DNA of 64,000 bases from Pseudocoprococcus catus (GTDB lineage: Bacteria > Bacillota > Clostridia > Lachnospirales > Lachnospiraceae). The notes under the pieces are model-generated. The model was not told where the DNA came from and did no database searches. It saw nothing but the letters and a program-made list of their open reading frames with translations. Of this stretch, positions 1,990 to 41,687 are shown in pieces; position 1 is the stretch's first letter, and every line of letters begins with the position of its first letter. The position numbers were made by a program, and so were the translations under genes. The DNA is taken from NCBI RefSeq assembly GCF_019734885.1, contig NZ_JAAXCM010000049.1, forward strand, positions 26,470-90,469, given 5' to 3'.

Positions 1990-3522
1990 ATGAATTGCAT
2001 AAAATGTAATATGCCCCTGGAAAATGTCTATATATGCCCACATTGCGGTCATGTGGACAAGGTGGCCAAGAAGATCATATATTCATCCAACTGGCATTAT
2101 AACCAGGGACTGGCCAAGGCAAAGGTACGAGATCTGAGCGGTGCCGTTACGTCACTGAGTCAGTCATTGAAATATAACAAACGGAATACAGATGCACGTA
2201 ATCTTCTGGGGCTGATTTATTATCAGATGGGAGAGATTGTGGCAGCCCTCAGCGAGTGGGTCATCAGCGTTCATTTTCAGGAACGCAACAATATTGCGGC
2301 TGACTATATTCAGGCCATTCAGAACAATCCGGCCAAGTTAAAGGCAGCCAACAAGGTGATCCAGAAGTATAATCTGGCATTGAATTATGTGCAGGAGAAC
2401 AATGCGGATCTGGCAATTATAGAGCTGAAACGTGTTGTGAACATGAGTCCTACATATATCAGAGCCTATCAGCTGCTGGGGCTGCTTTATATGCAGAGAA
2501 AGCAGTATGCGGCGGCCAGAAAGGTACTGATGCGTGCCGTCAAGGTTGACAGGAATAATATGACCACACTTCGGTATTTGAAAGAAGTGAATCATCTCCA
2601 CGGTAAGCAGGAGAAAAATCAGCATGGACGCAAGGATGAATTCATGCAGATCAACGATCCGAACCCTATTGTTATAGAAGAGGGATCTGGACATAATTAT
2701 GCAGATTATAATACGGGATTTTTGTCATTTATCAATATTCTGATCGGTATTGTTATTGGTGCGGCGGTTATCTGGCTGCTCATTGTACCATCTATTACCA
2801 AGACAAAGGCATCCGAGTACAATCAGGCAGTTGTGGAATACAGTGCCCAGATCTCTGAGCGCAATAAGAACATTGATGATCTCCAGAATCAGATTACGGA
2901 TCTTCAGAGCAAACTGTCTCAGTATGAGTCAACCGTCGGCAATACCGTGGATGATGCCGGTGCCAGTGAGCAGAAACTGATCGAGGCTGTAGGCAGCTAT
3001 CTCCAGAACAATGTGCAGGACGCAGGTACGCTGATTGCTGAAATTGAGCCTGCAGCTATTACTAATGCCCAGGAGAAGAAGATTTACAATATTTTGAAAG
3101 AGGCGACCAAGAGCTCTGTGACAGAAACGCTGTATGCAAATGCAAAAGACAGCTTTGACAAGAAGGATTATGTGGCTGCCATCGATGGTATGACCAAAGT
3201 CCTTCGAATGGATGACAGCTATTCCTATGCCGTTTTCTATATGGGACGCAGCTATCAGATGCTTGGTGATACAGGCAATGCAGCAGGTTACTACAAACGC
3301 CTGATCCAGTCCTATCCAAACTCAGATATGGTAGACGATGCAAGAAAATATCTGGATCAGCTGGGTGACACCACAAGCATTGACCCTGTGGATATTAGCG
3401 GCGGCAGCACAAGCGACAGCAATGACAATTCAGAGGACAACAGCAGCGACAACTCTGACGACGATTTGGGAGATAACACAGACAACGGATCATTAGACAA
3501 TGGTGACGGCAGCGAAGAATAA
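1990..3522 (+). CDS. zinc-ribbon / TPR membrane protein
   Basis: A 510-residue protein of modular design. The N-terminus has a zinc ribbon (CIKC...CPHCG, residues 3-21). Residues ~35-200 hold several tetratricopeptide repeats. A single hydrophobic segment near residues 245-265 (FINILIGIVIGAAVIWLLIV) follows. A coiled coil (~275-320) and a second TPR-like region (~380-460) come next, and a low-complexity Ser/Asp/Asn tail closes the protein. The likely topology is a cytoplasmic zinc ribbon and TPR domain, one membrane pass, and an external coiled-coil/TPR domain, giving a scaffold role. No enzyme motif is visible and the partner is unknown. A strong terminator follows it. Confidence 0.8.
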   Translation: MNCIKCNMPLENVYICPHCGHVDKVAKKIIYSSNWHYNQGLAKAKVRDLSGAVTSLSQSLKYNKRNTDARNLLGLIYYQMGEIVAALSEWVISVHFQERNNIAADYIQAIQNNPAKLKAANKVIQKYNLALNYVQENNADLAIIELKRVVNMSPTYIRAYQLLGLLYMQRKQYAAARKVLMRAVKVDRNNMTTLRYLKEVNHLHGKQEKNQHGRKDEFMQINDPNPIVIEEGSGHNYADYNTGFLSFINILIGIVIGAAVIWLLIVPSITKTKASEYNQAVVEYSAQISERNKNIDDLQNQITDLQSKLSQYESTVGNTVDDAGASEQKLIEAVGSYLQNNVQDAGTLIAEIEPAAITNAQEKKIYNILKEATKSSVTETLYANAKDSFDKKDYVAAIDGMTKVLRMDDSYSYAVFYMGRSYQMLGDTGNAAGYYKRLIQSYPNSDMVDDARKYLDQLGDTTSIDPVDISGGSTSDSNDNSEDNSSDNSDDDLGDNTDNGSLDNGDGSEE

Positions 3523-3560
3523 AATTTCTTCTATAAAAATTGAATAAACAATGAAAATAC

Positions 3561-3613
3561 AAAAGAAAAAGCATGATACTCCGATTAACCGGAGCGCATG
3601 CTTTTTCTTTTTT
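3561..3613 (+). terminator. intrinsic terminator after the TPR gene
   Basis: AAAGAAAAAGCATG pairs with CATGCTTTTTCTTT, with an inner CTCCG/CGGAG stem, and the hairpin ends in a run of T. It separates the folC-TPR unit from the sporulation operon. Confidence 0.9.
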
Positions 3614-3753
3614 GGTTTGTGTGGGAGTATATTTTTCAGGAATCAGAAATCCGATAGCGAGGTGTTTTAATATAAAAAGTAATTGAATACTTTTTAAAAG
3701 AAGGCAGGTGCTTCAAATTTGTTAGTAAATCTGGAGGATTGGGAGGAGAGTTT

Positions 3754-4110
3754 ATGGAATATCGCATTGTCCGCGGCATTTTGTTTGTTTCGCCCGGGAA
3801 GGAGATTGATCATTTCCGGGCGGAAAGAATTATCAGGTATACAGAGAGTCTGCTCAGGCAGCAGCGTTTTCGGACGATGGTTTTTGATCTGGCGGATACT
3901 GTTTTTATGGACAGTGCCGGTGTGGGGATGATGATCGGGCTTTATCGGGAAATCAGGGCCTGGGGAGGTGCTGTTTTTATTATCCGTATGCAGAAGGGGA
4001 TTCGTCGGATTTATCAGATGGCGGGACTGCAGAGGATTATTCCGAGTTATGACGACGAATCGCGGTTTATGGCAGCCATGGAGGGAGGGGGAAAAGATAA
4101 TGAGGGATGA
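3754..4110 (+). CDS. spoIIAA: anti-sigma F factor antagonist SpoIIAA
   Basis: STAS-domain protein of 118 residues that releases sigma F from SpoIIAB in the forespore when dephosphorylated. The motif FMDSAGVGM holds the serine expected to be phosphorylated by SpoIIAB. Start ATG 3754 is set by GGGAGGAG five bases upstream; an in-frame TTG at 3739 would put the RBS inside the gene. Its 3' end overlaps spoIIAB by 11 nt, the usual translationally coupled layout of the spoIIA operon. Confidence 0.95.
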   Translation: MEYRIVRGILFVSPGKEIDHFRAERIIRYTESLLRQQRFRTMVFDLADTVFMDSAGVGMMIGLYREIRAWGGAVFIIRMQKGIRRIYQMAGLQRIIPSYDDESRFMAAMEGGGKDNEG

Positions 4111-4555
4111 AATGAAACTGACAATGAATGCGATTGCAGAGAATGAATATTTTGCCCGGGTTGCGGTGGCGGCTTTTTCGGCCAAGATGGATCCGACCAT
4201 GGAAGAACTTGCAGATATTAAAACAGCGGTTTCGGAAGCTGTCACGAATGCCGTCGTTCATGGTTATGACCACAAAGGAGGGATATTGGAGATTGATGCA
4301 CGGATCGAGGATGAATGGCTGGAGATTGAAATCGAGGATGAAGGGATTGGGATTGATGATGTGAAGCAGGCCATGGAACCATTGTATACATCTCGTCCGG
4401 AGGAGAATCATGCCGGTATGGGGTTTACTTTTATGGAAGCTTTTATGGATGAATTGGAGGTTGTTTCGACGCCCGGACAGGGAACAAAAGTAAAAATGCG
4501 AAAGAAAATTGAAATGCCGGCAGCAGTTCGCAGAAAAAAGAGGTCTATCAGGTGA
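4100..4555 (+). CDS. spoIIAB: anti-sigma F factor / serine kinase SpoIIAB
   Basis: GHKL-fold kinase and anti-sigma factor, ~151 residues. The N box (EAVTNAVVHGY), the G1 box (DEGIGI) and a second glycine motif (HAGMGFTFM) are all present. It phosphorylates SpoIIAA and binds sigma F. ATG 4100 follows GGAGGGG at 4083-4089. The frame is open further upstream, but that extension lies wholly over spoIIAA and is not supported by an RBS. The stop overlaps the GTG start of sigF (GTGA, 4552-4555). Confidence 0.95.
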   Translation: MRDEMKLTMNAIAENEYFARVAVAAFSAKMDPTMEELADIKTAVSEAVTNAVVHGYDHKGGILEIDARIEDEWLEIEIEDEGIGIDDVKQAMEPLYTSRPEENHAGMGFTFMEAFMDELEVVSTPGQGTKVKMRKKIEMPAAVRRKKRSIR

Positions 4556-5268
4556 CAGAAATCCGGGAGCTGCTGATGAAGGCACAGGCAGGCGACAAGG
4601 AAGCCAGAGAGCAGCTGGTTCAGAAAAACATTGGACTTGTAAAAAGTATTGTCAGTCGGTATACAGCCAGAGGTGTGGAAAAAGAGGATCTGATCCAAAT
4701 CGGGATGATCGGTCTGATAAAAGCAATCGACAATTTTGACATGACCTATGAGGTGCGTTTCTCGACCTATGCGGTGCCAATGATCGCCGGGGAAATTCGC
4801 AGATTTCTGAGGGATAATGGTGCCATTAAGGTGAGTCGTTCTATCAAGGATCATCGTGTTGCTGTCAACAGGAGCAGAGAACGGTTGATCGAAAAACTGG
4901 GAAGAGAGCCGACGATCCATGAAATTGCCGAGGATGTGGGGCTTTCTATGGAAGATATTTTGCTGGCCGTGAATTCAGGCCAGGAAGTGGCATCCCTTCA
5001 GCAGATGATTTATGAAGGGGACGGCAGCAGCATCCGTCTGATGGACAGGTTGTCCGCACACAGTGGGGAAGGAGATGCTTCACTGGATCGGATGATGCTG
5101 GCAGATTCATTATCAGCACTGGAACAAAAAGAAAGGGAACTGATTGTTCTGCGCTTCTATTATGATCAGACACAGTCACAGATTGCGAAACGGATGGGGG
5201 TATCACAAGTGCAGGTATCAAGGCTTGAGAAGAGGATCCTAAGAAAGATGAAGATGTATATCAGTTAG
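4552..5268 (+). CDS. sigF: RNA polymerase sigma-F factor (SpoIIAC)
   Basis: A 238-residue group 3 sigma factor with region 2 (DLIQIGMIGLIKAIDNFD, FSTYAVPMIAGEIRRFLRD), a short region 3 (GREPTIHEIAE) and a region 4 helix-turn-helix (YYDQTQSQIAKRMGVSQVQV). Its place directly behind spoIIAA and spoIIAB identifies it as sigma F, the first forespore sigma factor. The GTG start overlaps the spoIIAB stop by four bases, giving translational coupling with its own inhibitor. Confidence 0.96.
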   Translation: MTEIRELLMKAQAGDKEAREQLVQKNIGLVKSIVSRYTARGVEKEDLIQIGMIGLIKAIDNFDMTYEVRFSTYAVPMIAGEIRRFLRDNGAIKVSRSIKDHRVAVNRSRERLIEKLGREPTIHEIAEDVGLSMEDILLAVNSGQEVASLQQMIYEGDGSSIRLMDRLSAHSGEGDASLDRMMLADSLSALEQKERELIVLRFYYDQTQSQIAKRMGVSQVQVSRLEKRILRKMKMYIS

Positions 5269-9253: not shown

Positions 9254-9356
9254 TTTTTTGCGGAAAACATGATAAAATATGTAAGAGGTCAGTATGCATT
9301 CATAATGAATAAACATACACCGAGAAGCAACGAAAATTTTAAGGAGGATAAGTAAA

Positions 9357-10253
9357 ATGAAAATGAGAAAAGTATTAAGTGCTCTTCTGGTTGCAGCATG
9401 TACCCTTTCACTGGCAGCATGCGGCAGTTCCAGCAGCAAGAGTGAAACAACAGGCGCATCAGGTGAAACTGCAGGAAGCAGTGCCAACACAGCAAAGGTT
9501 ATCGATGTGGATCTGACAAGTGAAGAATATGCATTTGGTGTGGATAAAACACAGCCTGAACTGCTTGAACAGACAAACACATTTATCCAGAAGATCAAAG
9601 ATGACGGTACACTGGATGCCATCTGTGCAAAATATTTCGGTGATGGTGAACCTGAAGCTGTTGAATCAGCAGAACTTGACAGTTCCAAAGACCAGTTGGT
9701 TGTAGCTACAAATGCAGCTTTCGAGCCTTTTGAATACACAAAGGGTGACCAGTACTATGGTATTGATATGGAAATCGCCAAACTTCTTGCAGATGAACTT
9801 GGCAAAGAGCTTGTTATCCAGAACATGGATTTCGACGCGGTATGCTTATCTGTCAGCCAGCAGAAATGTGATATTGCTATGGCAGGTCTGACAATCAACG
9901 AAGAAAGACAGGAATATGTAACTTTCACAGATCCTTATTATCAGGCATCCCAGAGACTGATTGTGCCAAGTGCAGATACAACATTTGACGAATGCAAGAC
10001 AGCTGATGAAGTTGCAGCTAAACTTGGTGAATTAAGCAGCTCTGACAAGATTGGTGTTCAGGCCGGTACAACAGGTCAGTATTACGTTGAAGGCAGCGAT
10101 GATTGGGGCTTCCCGGGTCTTCCTGCTGAATGTGTAACTTATAAGAGTGGTTCCCTGGCTGTTCAGGATATGTTAAATGGCAACATCAAGTATGTCATCA
10201 TTGATGCTGCTCCTGCTGCAGCAATTACAGCATCTATCAACGCAATGCAGTAA
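9357..10253 (+). CDS. amino-acid ABC transporter binding lipoprotein, circularly permuted
   Basis: A 298-residue lipoprotein. The signal peptide ends in the lipobox LAAC with Cys22 as the lipidation site, followed by a Ser/Thr/Gly linker. Residues ~47-99 (from KVIDVDLTSEEYAFGV to AKYFGDG) look like the normal C-terminal end of a family 3 solute-binding protein. The usual N-terminal start (QLVVATNAAFEPFEY) comes only at ~113. The protein stops at YVIIDAAPAAAI...NAMQ, just where the missing tail would normally follow. The order of parts is thus rotated. It should capture a polar amino acid outside the membrane for the permease and ATPase encoded next. Confidence 0.85.
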   Translation: MKMRKVLSALLVAACTLSLAACGSSSSKSETTGASGETAGSSANTAKVIDVDLTSEEYAFGVDKTQPELLEQTNTFIQKIKDDGTLDAICAKYFGDGEPEAVESAELDSSKDQLVVATNAAFEPFEYTKGDQYYGIDMEIAKLLADELGKELVIQNMDFDAVCLSVSQQKCDIAMAGLTINEERQEYVTFTDPYYQASQRLIVPSADTTFDECKTADEVAAKLGELSSSDKIGVQAGTTGQYYVEGSDDWGFPGLPAECVTYKSGSLAVQDMLNGNIKYVIIDAAPAAAITASINAMQ

Positions 10254-10324: not shown

Positions 10325-11035
10325 ATGGGAAATTTTGATCAGAAAGTTAACAAGTTTATAGAGATATTCTGGGAGCAGAATGGCTACAACAAGGTGCTTC
10401 AGGGTCTGCAGAACACCCTGATGATTGCCATTGCCGGTCTGATCATCGGCATTATTATCGGTACGATCATTGCCACTGTCCGTGTACTCCCAAAATATAA
10501 AACATTGCCGAAGGTGCTGAATGCGATCTGCAGCTTTTATGTTGCATTATTCCGCGGTACGCCTATGGTTGTTCAGCTCCTTGTCTTCTACTATGTTCTT
10601 TTACCGATTATCGGTTTGAAGATTACAGGTGTTCAGGTGGCGATGATGGTCTTTGGTCTGAACAGCGGCGCCTACATATCTGAGATTATGCGAAGTGGTA
10701 TTCAGTCTGTAGACCCGGGACAGATGGAAGCCGGACGTGCAGTGGGTTTAAGTTTTGGTACAAGTATGGTCAAAATTGTTATCCCACAGGCAGTCAAAAA
10801 TATTCTTCCGACACTGGGCAATGAATTCATTTCCCTGATCAAGGAGACATCTGTTGTCAGTTTTGTCGGTGCGGCCGACCTTTATGTAGCATTTAACTAT
10901 ATCGGCAGCAACAGCTATGAATTTATGGTTCCATATCTTGTCATGGCATTGATTTATATCGTTCTTGTGCTGATTATTTCATTATTAATCAAATTGATGG
11001 AAAGGAGCCTGAAGAAGAGTGATAGACGTAATTAA
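10325..11035 (+). CDS. amino-acid ABC transporter permease (HisM/GlnP type)
   Basis: A 236-residue inner-membrane protein with about five transmembrane segments. The first is [19 protein letters not shown] at ~36-54. The coupling loop that touches the ATPase is recognisable as [31 protein letters not shown] and [13 protein letters not shown] are further hallmarks of polar amino-acid permeases. It forms the membrane channel for the neighbouring lipoprotein and ATPase. Its 3' end overlaps the ATPase gene by 17 nt. Confidence 0.93.
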
Positions 11036-11825
11036 TCTTAAGAAAAGCTTTGGCAGTGTCGAAGTTTTAAAGGGCATCAACATGACCATCAATAAAGGCG
11101 ATATTGTGGCGATCATCGGACCATCAGGTTCCGGTAAGAGTACATTTCTCCGCTGCCTGAACTGTATGGAAGACCCGACATCAGGACAGATTATTTTTAA
11201 TGGTGTTGATATCGCGGATATGAAAGTTGATATCAATATTCACCGAAGAAAGATGGGCATGGTATTCCAGCATTTTAATCTTTTCAACAACAAAACCGTT
11301 CTTGAGAATATTATGCTGGCACCTGTTTATACCCGTTGCCAGGAACTGAAGAAAGCCAAACGTCATAACCGTCTGGCGGCATTTGGCAAGAAAGAACAGA
11401 TTCCTGTGACAACCACCAAGGAGCAGATTAAGAAAGAAGCCAGAGAACAGGCCATGAATCTGCTGAAACGTATCGGGCTGGAAGATAAGGCGAATGTCTA
11501 TCCTTCAACACTGTCCGGCGGTCAGAAACAGCGAATTGCCATTGTCCGAGCCCTGGCCATGAATCCGGATGTGATTCTTTTCGACGAACCGACATCTGCC
11601 CTGGACCCTGAAATGGTCGGAGAAGTTCTGGAGCTGATGAAACAGCTGGCAGAGGAAGGCATGACCATGGTGGTTGTTACCCATGAGATGGGATTTGCCA
11701 GAGAAGTGGCTTCCAGAGTCGTCTTCATCGATGAAGGTGTTATCAAGGAAGAAGCAGAACCGAAGGAATTCTTCGCACATCCGAAGGACGTGAGACTGAA
11801 GGAATTTCTGTCGAAGGTGCTGTAA
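11019..11825 (+). CDS. amino-acid ABC transporter ATP-binding protein
   Basis: A 268-residue ABC ATPase with Walker [11 protein letters not shown]-loop VFQHFNLF, signature LSGGQKQR, Walker [15 protein letters not shown] and H-loop VTHEM. It energises the adjacent permease. The GTG start at 11019 lies inside the end of the permease gene, with AAGGAG at 11001-11006. Between the Q-loop and the signature is an extra, basic stretch of about 30 residues (from [14 protein letters not shown] to VTTTKEQ) not present in typical HisP/GlnQ proteins. Confidence 0.94.
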
Positions 11826-11848
11826 AACTGAATTTGAAGTGATATAAG

Positions 11849-11897
11849 ACAGGCCGTCCGGTCAGCGAAGTGCTGACTGGGCGGCCTGTTTTTCTTT
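11849..11897. terminator. terminator between convergent genes
   Basis: ACAGGCCG-CC-GTCAGC pairs with GCTGAC-GG-CGGCCTGT and is followed by TTTTTCTTT on the plus strand. It ends the ABC operon. The stem includes the last codons of the minus-strand gene that stops at 11862. Confidence 0.85.
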
Positions 11898-13814
11898 ATT
11901 CTCCATATAAAATACCTTGCCTTTTGGCCGGAAAGGCAGTCGATTGCCATTGGGAATGAGAAAGGCATGTTTCCGTCGGATTTTTAGATTATCTTCGATA
12001 TAGCCGTCTGTGATTACAAGAATCGGGCCGGAAGGTGGGAAGTCTTTGGCTTTTTCCAAAGCATCAATTCCGGGCTGAAGGATTGTGCCGCCTCTGCCGG
12101 TGATTTCTACTCTGCCTGCGATATCTTCCGGGGCCATGTATCCGGCATCGGTGGCCTCGGCATCACAGAAGATTATCCGGACAAAGGGGACGTCCTTGGC
12201 AGCAGCGTAGCTGGCAGCGGCACCCAATGCTAAGCCAATCTGTGCAGAACACATGGAGCCGGAGGTGTCGATAACAACGCCAAAAGTTCGGCTTTTCAGC
12301 TCTTTTTCATGAAGCATATAGCTTGGCCTTGGTATATTCGGTGTGGAACCCTGGCGTCTGCTTGGTCTTACATAGGTGCGATGCTTTTCCAGAGGCGGGA
12401 ATTGCTCATCAAACCATCTGCCCAGCTGCACTTCCCAGGGAATAGGCGGCATGGAAAGGGCGCGGATCTCTTCAATAAGTCCGGCCGGTAGATAGCCTCT
12501 GCTGTGGGTGGTGTGATAGTCAAGTCCTTCACGCAGCGCGTTCTTGAAAAATTCATCCAGACTGATGCCTTTGTGCAGGCCTTCAAATCGGGGACTCTGA
12601 TCGCCAAACAGATCGCCTTTTCCGTATCCTCTGAAAGTGGCATGCTTTTTAAATTTCCGTATTTTTTTGACAATAAGGTCATAAATGGCTTCTGCTGACA
12701 TATTGTGCAGGCTTTCATCGTACAGCAGATCTTCCTCCGGCATGCTGCCGATATGCATGGCAAGGAGCCAATCATTAATGACATAATCGCAGGCAATATT
12801 CCAAAGATAGTGATCCCGACCCTGGCATCGTTCATGGTGGCAGAGTCCGGCATGCAGATATTCATGGGCGAGGACGAATTTCCATTCCTCAAGTGTCAGA
12901 CAACATGACGGATTGGTATATATTTCTCCGTGTACTGCATCTACAGCAGCAATGTGTATCTCATATCTGCGGCATAAATCAATGTCTTCAATAATCTTAA
13001 AAGATGAGGCCAGGCCGCCAAGAAGCGGATAGTGAGATAAGAACCATTCAGAGGCTTTGGAAATTACGGTGTCTTTCTTTTTTGAGGCGTCGTGTCCGCC
13101 GGCATGGGAAGGGGTAAGACAGCCATAGACAAGCATTTTCAGTACGCGGCTTGAAAGTTCTCTTTTACCGGCACCGTATTCTGTCAGGGCATCACTCAGC
13201 ATATGCCATGATCTTGGTGTAGAGAAAGGCTCTTCTGTTTTGGGTGCTTCGGAAAAAAGATGGTCAGGCCGCTGGATAATGTAATCAATGACCCATGGGT
13301 GAAGCTGACTGCGCTGTGCCCACTTGATCCACTGTCTTGCATCAGCCTTCATCTGAACGTGGAACATTCGGTTGATCAGGGCAGAAGACATGGTTTTGAC
13401 AATGGCAGAGTCCTGAATTCGGTTTCCGGCACCAACGACAATGCTGCCTTCCGGGAGGTGATATTCGCCGATTCTTCTTTCGTGAATAAGAGAATAGAAA
13501 GCTTTCTGAACTTCCTGGGAACAGGCATTGAGTTCATCAAGAAATAAGACATAAGGCTCTTTGCGAGCAATCATTTTCGGAGGAAGAAATTCGGAAGTTT
13601 CACCTTTGATCTGCGGAATACCGATAATATCTTCCGGTGCTAGCTGACTGCCGAGAAGCGATACACAGGGCAAGCCGATTTCAGCTGCAAATTGTTCCAC
13701 AAGTGCAGATTTTCCGATACCCGGTGCACCCCAGATAAATACAGGTCTGCTTGGAGCAACATTGAGCAATATTTCCAGCATGTCATCCTGTGTGACAGTA
13801 ATTGGTAAATTCAT
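11862..13814 (-). CDS. MoxR-like AAA+ ATPase fused to metallopeptidase-like and VWA-like domains (DUF2201 type)
   Basis: A 650-residue fusion. Residues ~1-240 form an AAA+ module: Walker A WGAPGIGKSA, Walker B VLFLDELN, sensor region GAGNR and arginine-finger region INRM. Residues ~265-480 resemble the putative metallopeptidase domain of DUF2201 proteins, with HEYLHAGLCHH (an HExxH motif) near residue 330. Residues ~515-630 form a VWA-like domain with the metal-site motif DTSGSM. In many bacteria the ATPase and the DUF2201 protein are separate neighbouring genes. By analogy with MoxR-VWA pairs it may act as a chaperone that remodels a protein partner. It is probably co-transcribed with the Cys-rich gene 23 nt upstream. 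Confidence 0.8.
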   Translation of the reverse strand: MNLPITVTQDDMLEILLNVAPSRPVFIWGAPGIGKSALVEQFAAEIGLPCVSLLGSQLAPEDIIGIPQIKGETSEFLPPKMIARKEPYVLFLDELNACSQEVQKAFYSLIHERRIGEYHLPEGSIVVGAGNRIQDSAIVKTMSSALINRMFHVQMKADARQWIKWAQRSQLHPWVIDYIIQRPDHLFSEAPKTEEPFSTPRSWHMLSDALTEYGAGKRELSSRVLKMLVYGCLTPSHAGGHDASKKKDTVISKASEWFLSHYPLLGGLASSFKIIEDIDLCRRYEIHIAAVDAVHGEIYTNPSCCLTLEEWKFVLAHEYLHAGLCHHERCQGRDHYLWNIACDYVINDWLLAMHIGSMPEEDLLYDESLHNMSAEAIYDLIVKKIRKFKKHATFRGYGKGDLFGDQSPRFEGLHKGISLDEFFKNALREGLDYHTTHSRGYLPAGLIEEIRALSMPPIPWEVQLGRWFDEQFPPLEKHRTYVRPSRRQGSTPNIPRPSYMLHEKELKSRTFGVVIDTSGSMCSAQIGLALGAAASYAAAKDVPFVRIIFCDAEATDAGYMAPEDIAGRVEITGRGGTILQPGIDALEKAKDFPPSGPILVITDGYIEDNLKIRRKHAFLIPNGNRLPFRPKGKVFYMENKEKQAAQSALR

Positions 13815-14272: not shown

Positions 14273-15201
14273 TTATAGATTATGTTTTTTCAGGACATCC
14301 AGTACAAAATCTATGGATTGCTCACAGAGAGCAGCAATTTCTTCTGGTGATTTGTTTTGTGCATGATAGGAAAGAATTAGGGAAGTGAGAAGTTTGTCAG
14401 CACGTTCCTTTTCTTTAGTAATATCTTGTTCTGCTTGGCGTAAACCATTTTCAAACCCTTCTTCATAACTAATCTCTTTCTCGGAAGCAATGTGTGCGGC
14501 ACTATCATATTCTTTGAATAACATATCGGTAACCTCCGCCCTGTGTTCACGTAAAATATCGGCGAGTATGTCCTTTTCAATGCATTCAGTAATTGTTTCT
14601 TCTATTGCGTCACCCAGTGAAAGTCCGTCAGAAATCTTTTGGCGAAGCGCGGCCACAAATAATGAATACTGATGGAGCAGTGGGCAGCGGTTCATGATTT
14701 TGGCGCTGTGTCCGGCATTGATATTAATCATATGAGCAGTAAATTCTGCGGATGAAACTTTAGAAGCGTTTGTTCCGGCCATGCTGTCAGTCAATTTAAG
14801 GATTACTTCATCTGCGGCTTTTTTAATCCGTTATAAAAGACATAATAGCGTGGGACTGGAATGGTCAATAACTTACTGGAATACATATCCAGACGATTCT
14901 TTTCAATAAATTTCTTTAATGCAGCACTGGTGTAAATCAAACCGCGAAGCGGCATATTCGGATTATAAGAACTCTGATGCTCAAACATGTTCAGATTCCA
15001 GTCAAGCAGGAATGATAAATCATTTTTCATTCCCATATACAGGAAATCGTTCATGGTATAGAATTCCATGGCATCAGTCTCATGATAATTACTGTCGTTG
15101 ATGGCATTATAAAGCGAAAGTGCAGCGTTCTTATCATTGAAAATAAATCGGAAAAGGCTGTCCTTGTATTTACGGTTGTAATAGATATTTTCCTGCGACA
15201 T
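14273..15201 (-). pseudogene. Rpn-family recombination-promoting nuclease/putative transposase, split by a -1 frameshift
   Basis: Two frames together give one PD-(D/E)XK Rpn-type protein of about 309 residues. The first frame (start 15201, stop 14803-14805) holds the N-terminus and active-site region (FLLDWNLNMFEHQSS, PNMPLRGLIY, PRYYVFYNG). The second frame, open to 14273, continues with ADEVILKLTDSM and the C-terminal HMININAGHS..., CIEKDILADIL and SEKEISYEEGFENG motifs. The switch point is A AAA AAG (plus strand 14818-14824) in exactly the phase that a -1 slip needs. Thus it is either a gene inactivated by loss of one A or one expressed by programmed frameshifting. Family members promote RecA-independent recombination. 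Confidence 0.8.
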
Positions 15202-22610: not shown

Positions 22611-22633
22611 TAGATGGATTCACCATAATTTTT

Positions 22634-22775
22634 TCTTTAAGCGCCATGTACCGGAGTGATCCGGTTAACGAGGAGAAGGGTGATCGAAGATTCGGCGGAT
22701 GCCCTTTCGCACATCCCGGTGCGGATATATTGACAAATATGCAGGCAACTGCAAAACAAAACAATATAACGGGAA
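22634..22775 (+). ncRNA. glmS ribozyme riboswitch
   Basis: The core of the GlcN6P-dependent self-cleaving glmS ribozyme is clear. AAGCGCC gives the cleavage site before G22641. TTAACGAGG and GGGTGATCGAAG follow, then the invariant TTCGGCGGATGCCC. P3 forms from GCAC/GTGC and a long-range P4 from ATATTG/CAATAT. High glucosamine-6-phosphate triggers cleavage and decay of the glmS mRNA, a feedback loop on cell-wall sugar synthesis. It stands ~100 nt before the glmS start. Confidence 0.95.
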
Positions 22776-22875
22776 CTGATGAGATCAGATAGTGAAGCAT
22801 CAAAGATGATTATGAGACGTATGAGGCTGGCAAAACAGCTGAGTACATGAATATATAGATTAGTGAGGAAAAATT

Positions 22876-41442: not shown

Positions 41443-41687
41443 AAAAAAGCTTGTGACATTGATAGCTATGAAGCGTGAGGTTGCTGCGAGGGTTGCGCAG
41501 GTGTTCCGTGGAGCGAATGTCAAGTTTGAAAACTGGCGACAAGTCACTGTACAAAGTTAACAAGGTCTGTCTATAAGAGAATGTAAGACAGAATAAGTGT
41601 GTGTTGATATCAGGAAACACACGGGAAAGTGTACAGTCACCGCTTGTCGTACTTGATGAATAGTGCGAAAAGGAGGCGGCTTTTTTT
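41443..41687 (+). promoter_or_regulatory. long 5' leader of the S10 operon
   Basis: About 240 nt without a supported gene. GACATT...AATGTC (around 41456-41522) can close a multi-hairpin structure, and other GC-rich segments follow, ending at AAAAGGAGGCGG before rpsJ. Such length suggests autogenous control by a ribosomal protein, such as L4, but no known leader motif was recognised with certainty. The stretch 41045-41413 upstream holds only the minus-strand promoter area and no gene I can support. Confidence 0.5.

Follow-up and report, generated by a model that had tools for sequence, protein, structure and literature searches.

A family 3 binding lipoprotein of Pseudocoprococcus catus with rotated segment order, and the likely recurrence of such rotations in Clostridia

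Introduction

A stretch of 64,000 nucleotides from Pseudocoprococcus catus (contig NZ_JAAXCM010000049.1, positions 26,470 to 90,469), referred to here as the window, contains at 9357-10253 an open reading frame (ORF) for a lipoprotein of 298 amino acids with an ATG start at 9357. The protein resembles the family 3 amino-acid-binding proteins of the HisJ/GlnH type, and the question raised by this locus is how the segment that normally ends such a protein comes to stand at its front. The answer proposed, with a probability of roughly 0.8, is that the gene encodes a rotated family 3 lipoprotein with one two-lobed fold, likely an amino-acid donor to the adjacent permease and ATPase, and that such rotations are recurrent in Clostridia. 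Three segments are distinguished: N denotes lobe 1 between the canonical N-terminus and the first hinge strand, C the core of lobe 2, and T everything between the second crossover and the canonical C-terminus. The canonical order is then NCT and that of the window protein TNC.

Segment order and predicted fold

The window protein matches PF00497 (SBP_bac_3) with 115.6 bits against a gathering score of 26.4, the match being split over two stretches. In phmmer alignments with the PDB, residues 11-174 of AncQR (4zv1) align with residues 113-290 of the window protein and residues 183-233 with 46-96, and AncCDT-1 (5t0w) shows the same rotated picture. In the source genome, PF00497 positions 97-131 (C6:35832-36110) are located upstream of positions 1-98 (C6:36165-36521), so that the canonical N-to-C order was not found. 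The original prediction, that the canonical C-terminal segment precedes the canonical N-terminal start, is borne out by these alignments and coordinates. The tail match alone is weak (independent E-value 0.001 for 4zv1 and 0.0029 for 5t0w). A tail profile made from relatives, the window protein among them, gives 92 bits on the window protein, and T lies at the same place in all 24 other sequences of a 25-row alignment. By profile reading T, N and C are each present once, and the difference from canonical proteins is a cyclic shift only.

AlphaFold2 models the window protein as one confident globular domain in which residues 46-95 fold as strand-strand-helix-helix with a block predicted local distance difference test (pLDDT) score of 87-98. 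The segments are complete and the predicted fold is single, in agreement with the earlier proposal that one complete fold is kept and apparently contrary to the possibility, raised with it, that the front segment lies elsewhere in a structure model. The protein had also been said to stop at IDAAPAAAI; this was mistaken, as the chain goes on for eight residues (TASINAMQ). The last predicted helix is at 284-297, and the cut therefore comes after that helix. When structures were searched with the model, most sequential alignments covered a part of it, residues 106-298, and some started at model residues 64-67 (e.g. 5t0w_D, 9e2b_A and 3vv5_A), with chain ranges beginning near the canonical N-terminal region. 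Foldseek matches of more than 200 columns (6svf and 9e2b) come without chain ranges. No solved permuted relative was recognised among these structure matches.

Relatives of the same order

Eight protein clusters at the top of the homologue list have 98% identity over 100% of the length. Full-length TNC proteins are found in 25 of 250 genomes of the family, 24 of them with 49-100% identity (source genome included) and one (G029) with 40%. Copies of 79-83% identity occur in five other genomes, and one of 80% in an isolate of Faecalicatena contorta. Among 80 loci kept from 417, named TNC carriers include Dorea, Faecalicatena contorta, Mediterraneibacter massiliensis, Blautia, Sporofaciens musculi, [Ruminococcus] torques and Acetivibrio mesophilus. 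Mean column identity in the 25-row alignment is 65%, and Cys22 is invariant both across these 25 relatives and across another alignment of 43 rows.

These relatives decide against an artefact, in which a canonical protein, shortened at its 3' end by a frameshift, truncation or assembly error, would stand next to a fused piece of another. Public metagenome sets do appear to include chimeric proteins, as described below for the order CTNCT, but full-length proteins of the same order in many assemblies, column identity at this level and a compact cassette speak against frameshift and assembly error alike. A C-terminus lost by frameshift, named in the original prediction as something that would overturn it, was looked for and none was found: 71 bp lie between the stop and the start of the permease, and copies with 98% identity are of full length. 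This explanation, to which next to no probability is given, is already refuted. A different possibility is that T works in trans, packed on a neighbouring molecule in a domain-swapped dimer. The C-terminal helix of Thermotoga maritima ArgBP is swapped in its dimer, and this protein ranks with the best structural matches, its PDB entries including truncated and mutant forms; the closure linker of 17 residues in 14 of 14 window-clade rows and the confident single-chain model argue against such an arrangement, which is considered improbable.

Three cyclic orders in Clostridia

Partial matches in the genomes of the family led to proteins of a further order, CTN, with lobe 2 first, T next and lobe 1 last, ending at the first hinge strand. 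The AlphaFold2 model of one CTN protein is confident (pLDDT 84.1, predicted template modelling score 0.73). Over loci L001-L320, ORF rows were read as TNC (139), CTN (97), NCT (69), NT (5), TN (2), NCTNCT (2), NCTNCTNCT (2) and TNTNCTN (1), with 124, 75 and 65 different proteins for TNC, CTN and NCT, respectively; as the sampling of loci was steered by TNC and CTN queries, these counts are not frequencies. The non-cyclic orders TCN, CNT and NTC number zero over the same loci. Even though built solely on TNC and CTN sequences, the profiles of N, C and T assign the order NCT to canonical proteins (34 rows). In one alignment, redone with 14 of 20 sequences, L058, which held a stop, and five permease fusions were left out.

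By match coordinates, TNC (25 genomes) and CTN (51 genomes) are found together in none of the 250 genomes of the family (hypergeometric p 0.0024, uncorrected for relatedness), where a tandem (G194), a partial form (G166) and a CTN-permease reading broken upstream (L167 in G208) are not counted as CTN. This mutual absence would fit equivalent roles. CTN proteins are also fused to permeases in frames of 510-556 amino acids (L061, L062, L063, L066, L067, L068, L155, L157, L162 and L170); in 10 of 10 examined, the hinge strand (QVIIV/QVIVV) is followed by about ten residues and then by the permease start.

Distant CTN forms are L317, from another class, and L108 6554-7354. The latter is encoded directly 3' of a TNC cassette, and its residues 171-264 match residues 68-160 of the canonical L001 while residues 66-143 match 216-292. 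Two larger proteins with receptor segments were also observed. L168 1510-3654 (G230) encodes a Ser/Thr protein kinase of 715 amino acids (kinase 62-333) with a TNC-rotated binding domain placed C-terminally (T 453-500, N 519-609 and a weak C 674-707), which is likely an outer sensor. The protein of 1000 amino acids at L236 706-3705 (G298) carries several incomplete receptor segments, ordered TNTNCTN.

A locus present in both orders

Genus g308 (family f45) contains a locus that is TNC in L221 and NCT in L244, the DNA of the two being syntenic. Positions 17-2347 of L221, with upstream reading frames and the signal peptide, pair with 5336-3002 of L244. N and C (2551-3065) pair with 2966-2437, followed by 3109-3172 with 2235-2171 and, over the permease and ATPase, 3547-5063 with 1844-327. 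The T block of 149 bp is moved: it lies just after the signal peptide in the TNC copy (L221 2350-2498) and at the 3' end of the gene in the NCT copy (L244 2426-2278). Also in this genus, L218 and L219 are TNC and L220 and L248 are NCT. One cassette therefore occupies one place in both orders, in a lineage other than that of the window.

Probable recurrence of the rotations

The larger phylogenetic tree contains 126 rows, selected from 225 by an 80% identity limit, with low-scoring rows, rows of other orders (L001, L036, the second ORF of L108, L167, L169 and L236) and window copies (L003/L009) left out. For a tree of 80 rows, TNC rows of the window clade were drawn at random to 12 and main CTN rows to 18, named special rows were added, and long or odd rows (L168, L174, L250, L237, L034, L247, L173, L166 and L052) were left out. 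With the segments re-sorted to canonical order, the 80-row tree requires eight order changes, well supported branches forcing four for TNC and three for CTN, and neither TNC nor CTN forms a single clade in any of 200 bootstrap trees (0%). A tree without T also gives eight changes with the forced numbers unchanged, and the approximately unbiased (AU) test, to which TNC alone was put, rejects a single TNC clade (p 4.8e-7). In the permease tree, which covers 77 of the 80 loci, 11 changes are counted, four of them forced for TNC, and the AU test again rejects a single TNC clade (p 4.0e-7).

Closure linkers vary as well. That of the window clade reads about DGEPxAVxSAxLDxSKD, L212-L217 and L035 have about GxAHDLxFQxNxEGKE, the linker of genus g308 has 24 residues, and in CTN proteins it is often DDTKGKxPYESPxDVDRSNG, with other types too. 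Judging from the trees, rotations of this kind probably arose on several occasions among related Clostridia, each time at the same joints.

Some observations weigh against this interpretation. Counts of order changes are blind to gain versus loss, and well supported branches of the permease tree force only two CTN changes. L211 adjoins the window clade in the larger tree yet has an unlike linker of 20 residues. The TNC row L035 has its linker type in common with L212-L217, so the four counted changes may be three origins, and three is the cautious count for TNC. An unpermuted orthologue of the window clade was not found; unpermuted paralogues (L001, L002 and L004) exist in the source genome but are distant, and the clade sits on a long branch. 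Finally, it is from predicted secondary structure, model confidence and homology that T would occupy its canonical place in the fold.

Direction and route

Among 348 genomes of the phylum, 103 were matched at E <= 1e-40, 99 of those outside the class. Canonical coordinates only were found in 97 of these 99, the others being one CTN (G804) and one tandem (G1010), which favours NCT as the ancestral order. Profile reading of 34 loci obtained here and in a follow-up search (four from within the class, some overlapping) gave 26 NCT, four NT, two CTN and two NCTNCT. The duplication that the standard model of permutation needs (excerpt of PMC3320104) is at hand, since tandem receptors exist in fusion with permeases: NCTNCTNCT (G194), NCTNCT (P0243; G1010) and CTNCTN (P0245).

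Profile reading of 360 proteins also gave 50 CTNCT, 11 NCTN, one TNCTN (P0172) and one TNCT (P0246, on a contig of 1.3 kb). The CTNCT proteins, "one and a half receptors" of 381-427 amino acids from metagenome sets (among P0124-P0271), were rejected as duplication intermediates. P0124, the one tested, appears to be a chimera produced in metagenome assembly from one CTN gene and one NCT gene: residues 1-268 are 78% identical to the former (G001), residues 163-391 are 93% identical to the latter (G026), and no place spanning both ends was found among the strongest matches listed against 397 genomes. Several other CTNCT proteins have identical halves in common. The NCTN, TNCTN and TNCT proteins were not relied on as intermediates, and P0043, read as TTNC, is in fact a protein of the window's kind that has lost a short internal stretch.

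Binding, tethering and hinge movement

T179, R184, T238/T239 and D283, which we take to be the alpha-amino-acid binding positions from GlnBP/LAO-type structures, are invariant in the 25 aligned rows and about equally conserved in all three orders; judging by GlnBP structures, presumably none of them is in T. The window protein likely still binds an amino acid, as far as these residues indicate. In the proposed mechanism, the canonical N- and C-termini, neighbours on lobe 1, would be joined by the closure linker, and the new chain break would lie at the second of the crossovers between lobes. Judged by the known fold, the cut sites of the two rotations would be the two interlobe crossovers, with closure on lobe 1. 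Rotation at this crossover would give TNC and at the other CTN, both from NCT, the simplest route being tandem duplication and then trimming. The pull of the lipid anchor would fall on the hinge strand where T begins instead of on the beginning of lobe 1, and continuity would be lost at one of the two hinge crossovers. Such a shift of the anchor may retune hinge motion or docking.

Descent of all orders from a single ancient form, itself rotated or duplicated, and origin of canonical NCT by later reversion would be permitted by change counts that are blind to direction and by the existence of tandem arrays. The canonical order of nearly all matched genomes outside the class, the differing linkers of the groups and the position of the g308 NCT rows L220, L248 and L244 outside the three TNC rows (one branch weak, 94/24) make it unlikely. 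The meaning of the rotation can be stated only tentatively: in the amino-acid Venus-flytrap receptors of Clostridia, chain order may itself be evolvable and under selection. Repeated opening at one or the other hinge crossover, with sealing on lobe 1, would move the anchor, or in CTN-permease fusions the transporter, from lobe 1 to the hinge and retune closing and docking. It is conceivable too that the rotation is neutral for tethering and hinge mechanics and survives since the termini are close and the fold tolerant. The even conservation of the binding positions and the occurrence of TNC and NCT in the same kind of cassette are consistent with neutrality, while cuts at the two interlobe crossovers only, the absence of genomes common to TNC and CTN and the hinge strand leading straight into the permease in the CTN fusions speak against it; neutrality is rated somewhat less likely than not.

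Comparison with known systems

TpMglB-2 (Tp0684; Type Ic, Cluster Bc) is a natural, lipid-anchored circular permutation with homologues of the same topology in Gram-positive bacteria, and tethering was raised by its authors as a possible reason (excerpts of PMC4990184). It is a type I sugar receptor with three N-lobe strands moved and a fourth crossover added, whereas the window protein is of family 3 and amino-acid type and is cut at a lobe crossover; its Pfam matches are PF00497 and PF10613 only, with no match to the type I sugar-binding family. Natural permutation is also described among glycine betaine-binding proteins (2b4l OpuAC, 1r9l and 1sw1), molybdate-binding proteins and CysB (CPSARST, excerpts of PMC2395249). 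Those cases have identity under 24% and other ligands, while here the orders are mixed in one sequence family and even in one genus. No Pfam or NCBIfam match to the OpuAC family was found for the window protein.

HisJ, GlnH and ArgBP (1wdn, 4zv1 and 4prs) are like the window protein in predicted fold, binding positions and cassette partners but run N-C-T instead of T-N-C. In the SBD1-SBD2 tandem of GlnPQ (6h30), lobe 1 of the second domain comes after the tail of the first, an arrangement like that of the rotated order, and residues 187-340 match 58-215 of the window protein; GlnPQ has two complete canonical domains and the window protein one set of segments. For saposin/swaposin and DNA methyltransferases, whose folds are unrelated, natural permutation is explained by a duplication model, with intermediates documented for the methyltransferases (excerpt of PMC3320104). 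Among the open-licence PMC papers listed, none was found to describe permutation in a family 3 receptor, its recurrence, the hinge cut sites or a two-order locus, and the excerpts of PMC9732360 and PMC10601554 contain nothing on natural permutation of these receptors.

As natural permutation of binding proteins is already known, the interest lies in the recurrence and the two-order locus more than in the single protein. If the interpretation is right, Clostridia offer a natural series of matched receptors in which chain order varies and conserved binding positions stay constant, with both orders at one syntenic locus inside a genus. The natural route of permutation, by duplication intermediates or direct block transfer, would become testable, as would the part of anchor and hinge continuity in the opening and closing of receptors of ATP-binding cassette importers. 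The rotation is also relevant to annotation, because profile tools show rotated proteins as split matches, and to the design of biosensors, a field in which binding proteins are permuted artificially.

The cassette and other features of the window

Coordinates of the gene parts and of the cassette are listed in Table 1, where AAGGAGG is presumed to be a ribosome-binding motif and LAAC with Cys22 is taken to be the lipobox. The ATPase gene overlaps the permease gene. The nearest equivalog models (e.g. GlnH and ArtI; cystine permease and GlnP; GlnQ) are all under cut-off for the cassette genes, so the ligand can be named no further than polar amino acid type. Beside the cassette there are no Rfam families above gathering score, and a ligand clue from a riboswitch was therefore not found. 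Promoter-like matches (10 found against 6.0 expected) were not used.

Table 1. Parts of the binding-protein gene and its cassette, in window coordinates
Feature	Position	Strand	Basis
Ribosome-binding site AAGGAGG	9341..9347	+	read in sequence
Lipoprotein signal peptide up to lipobox Cys22 (LAAC)	9357..9422	+	
T segment, residues 46-95; canonical C-terminal strand-strand-helix-helix placed first in the chain	9492..9641	+	PDB/Pfam alignments, profile, model
Closure linker, residues 96-112, from canonical C-terminal segment to canonical N-terminus, DGEPEAVESAELDSSKD	9642..9692	+	
N segment, residues 113-203; canonical N-terminal part of lobe 1 up to the first hinge strand	9693..9965	+	
C segment, residues 231-298; lobe 2 core, chain end at the canonical crossing back to lobe 1	10047..10250	+	
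Permease (BPD_transp_1, HEQRo_perm_3TM)	10325..11035	+	
ATP-binding protein (ABC_tran; nearest NCBIfam model GlnQ, under its cut-off)	11019..11825	+	
Terminator-like hairpin 3' of the cassette, 20-pair stem then T-rich tail	11846..11892	+	pattern match only

Elsewhere in the window, a glmS ribozyme is located at 22629-22778 (+) and an S10-Clostridia leader at 41460-41542 (+). An ORF of 650 amino acids at 11862-13814 (-) combines an AAA domain (24-150) with a region (252-603) that is DUF2201 metallopeptidase-like and VWA-like. At 14273-15201 (-), two adjacent frames on the same strand, neither with a Pfam match, resemble one broken gene.
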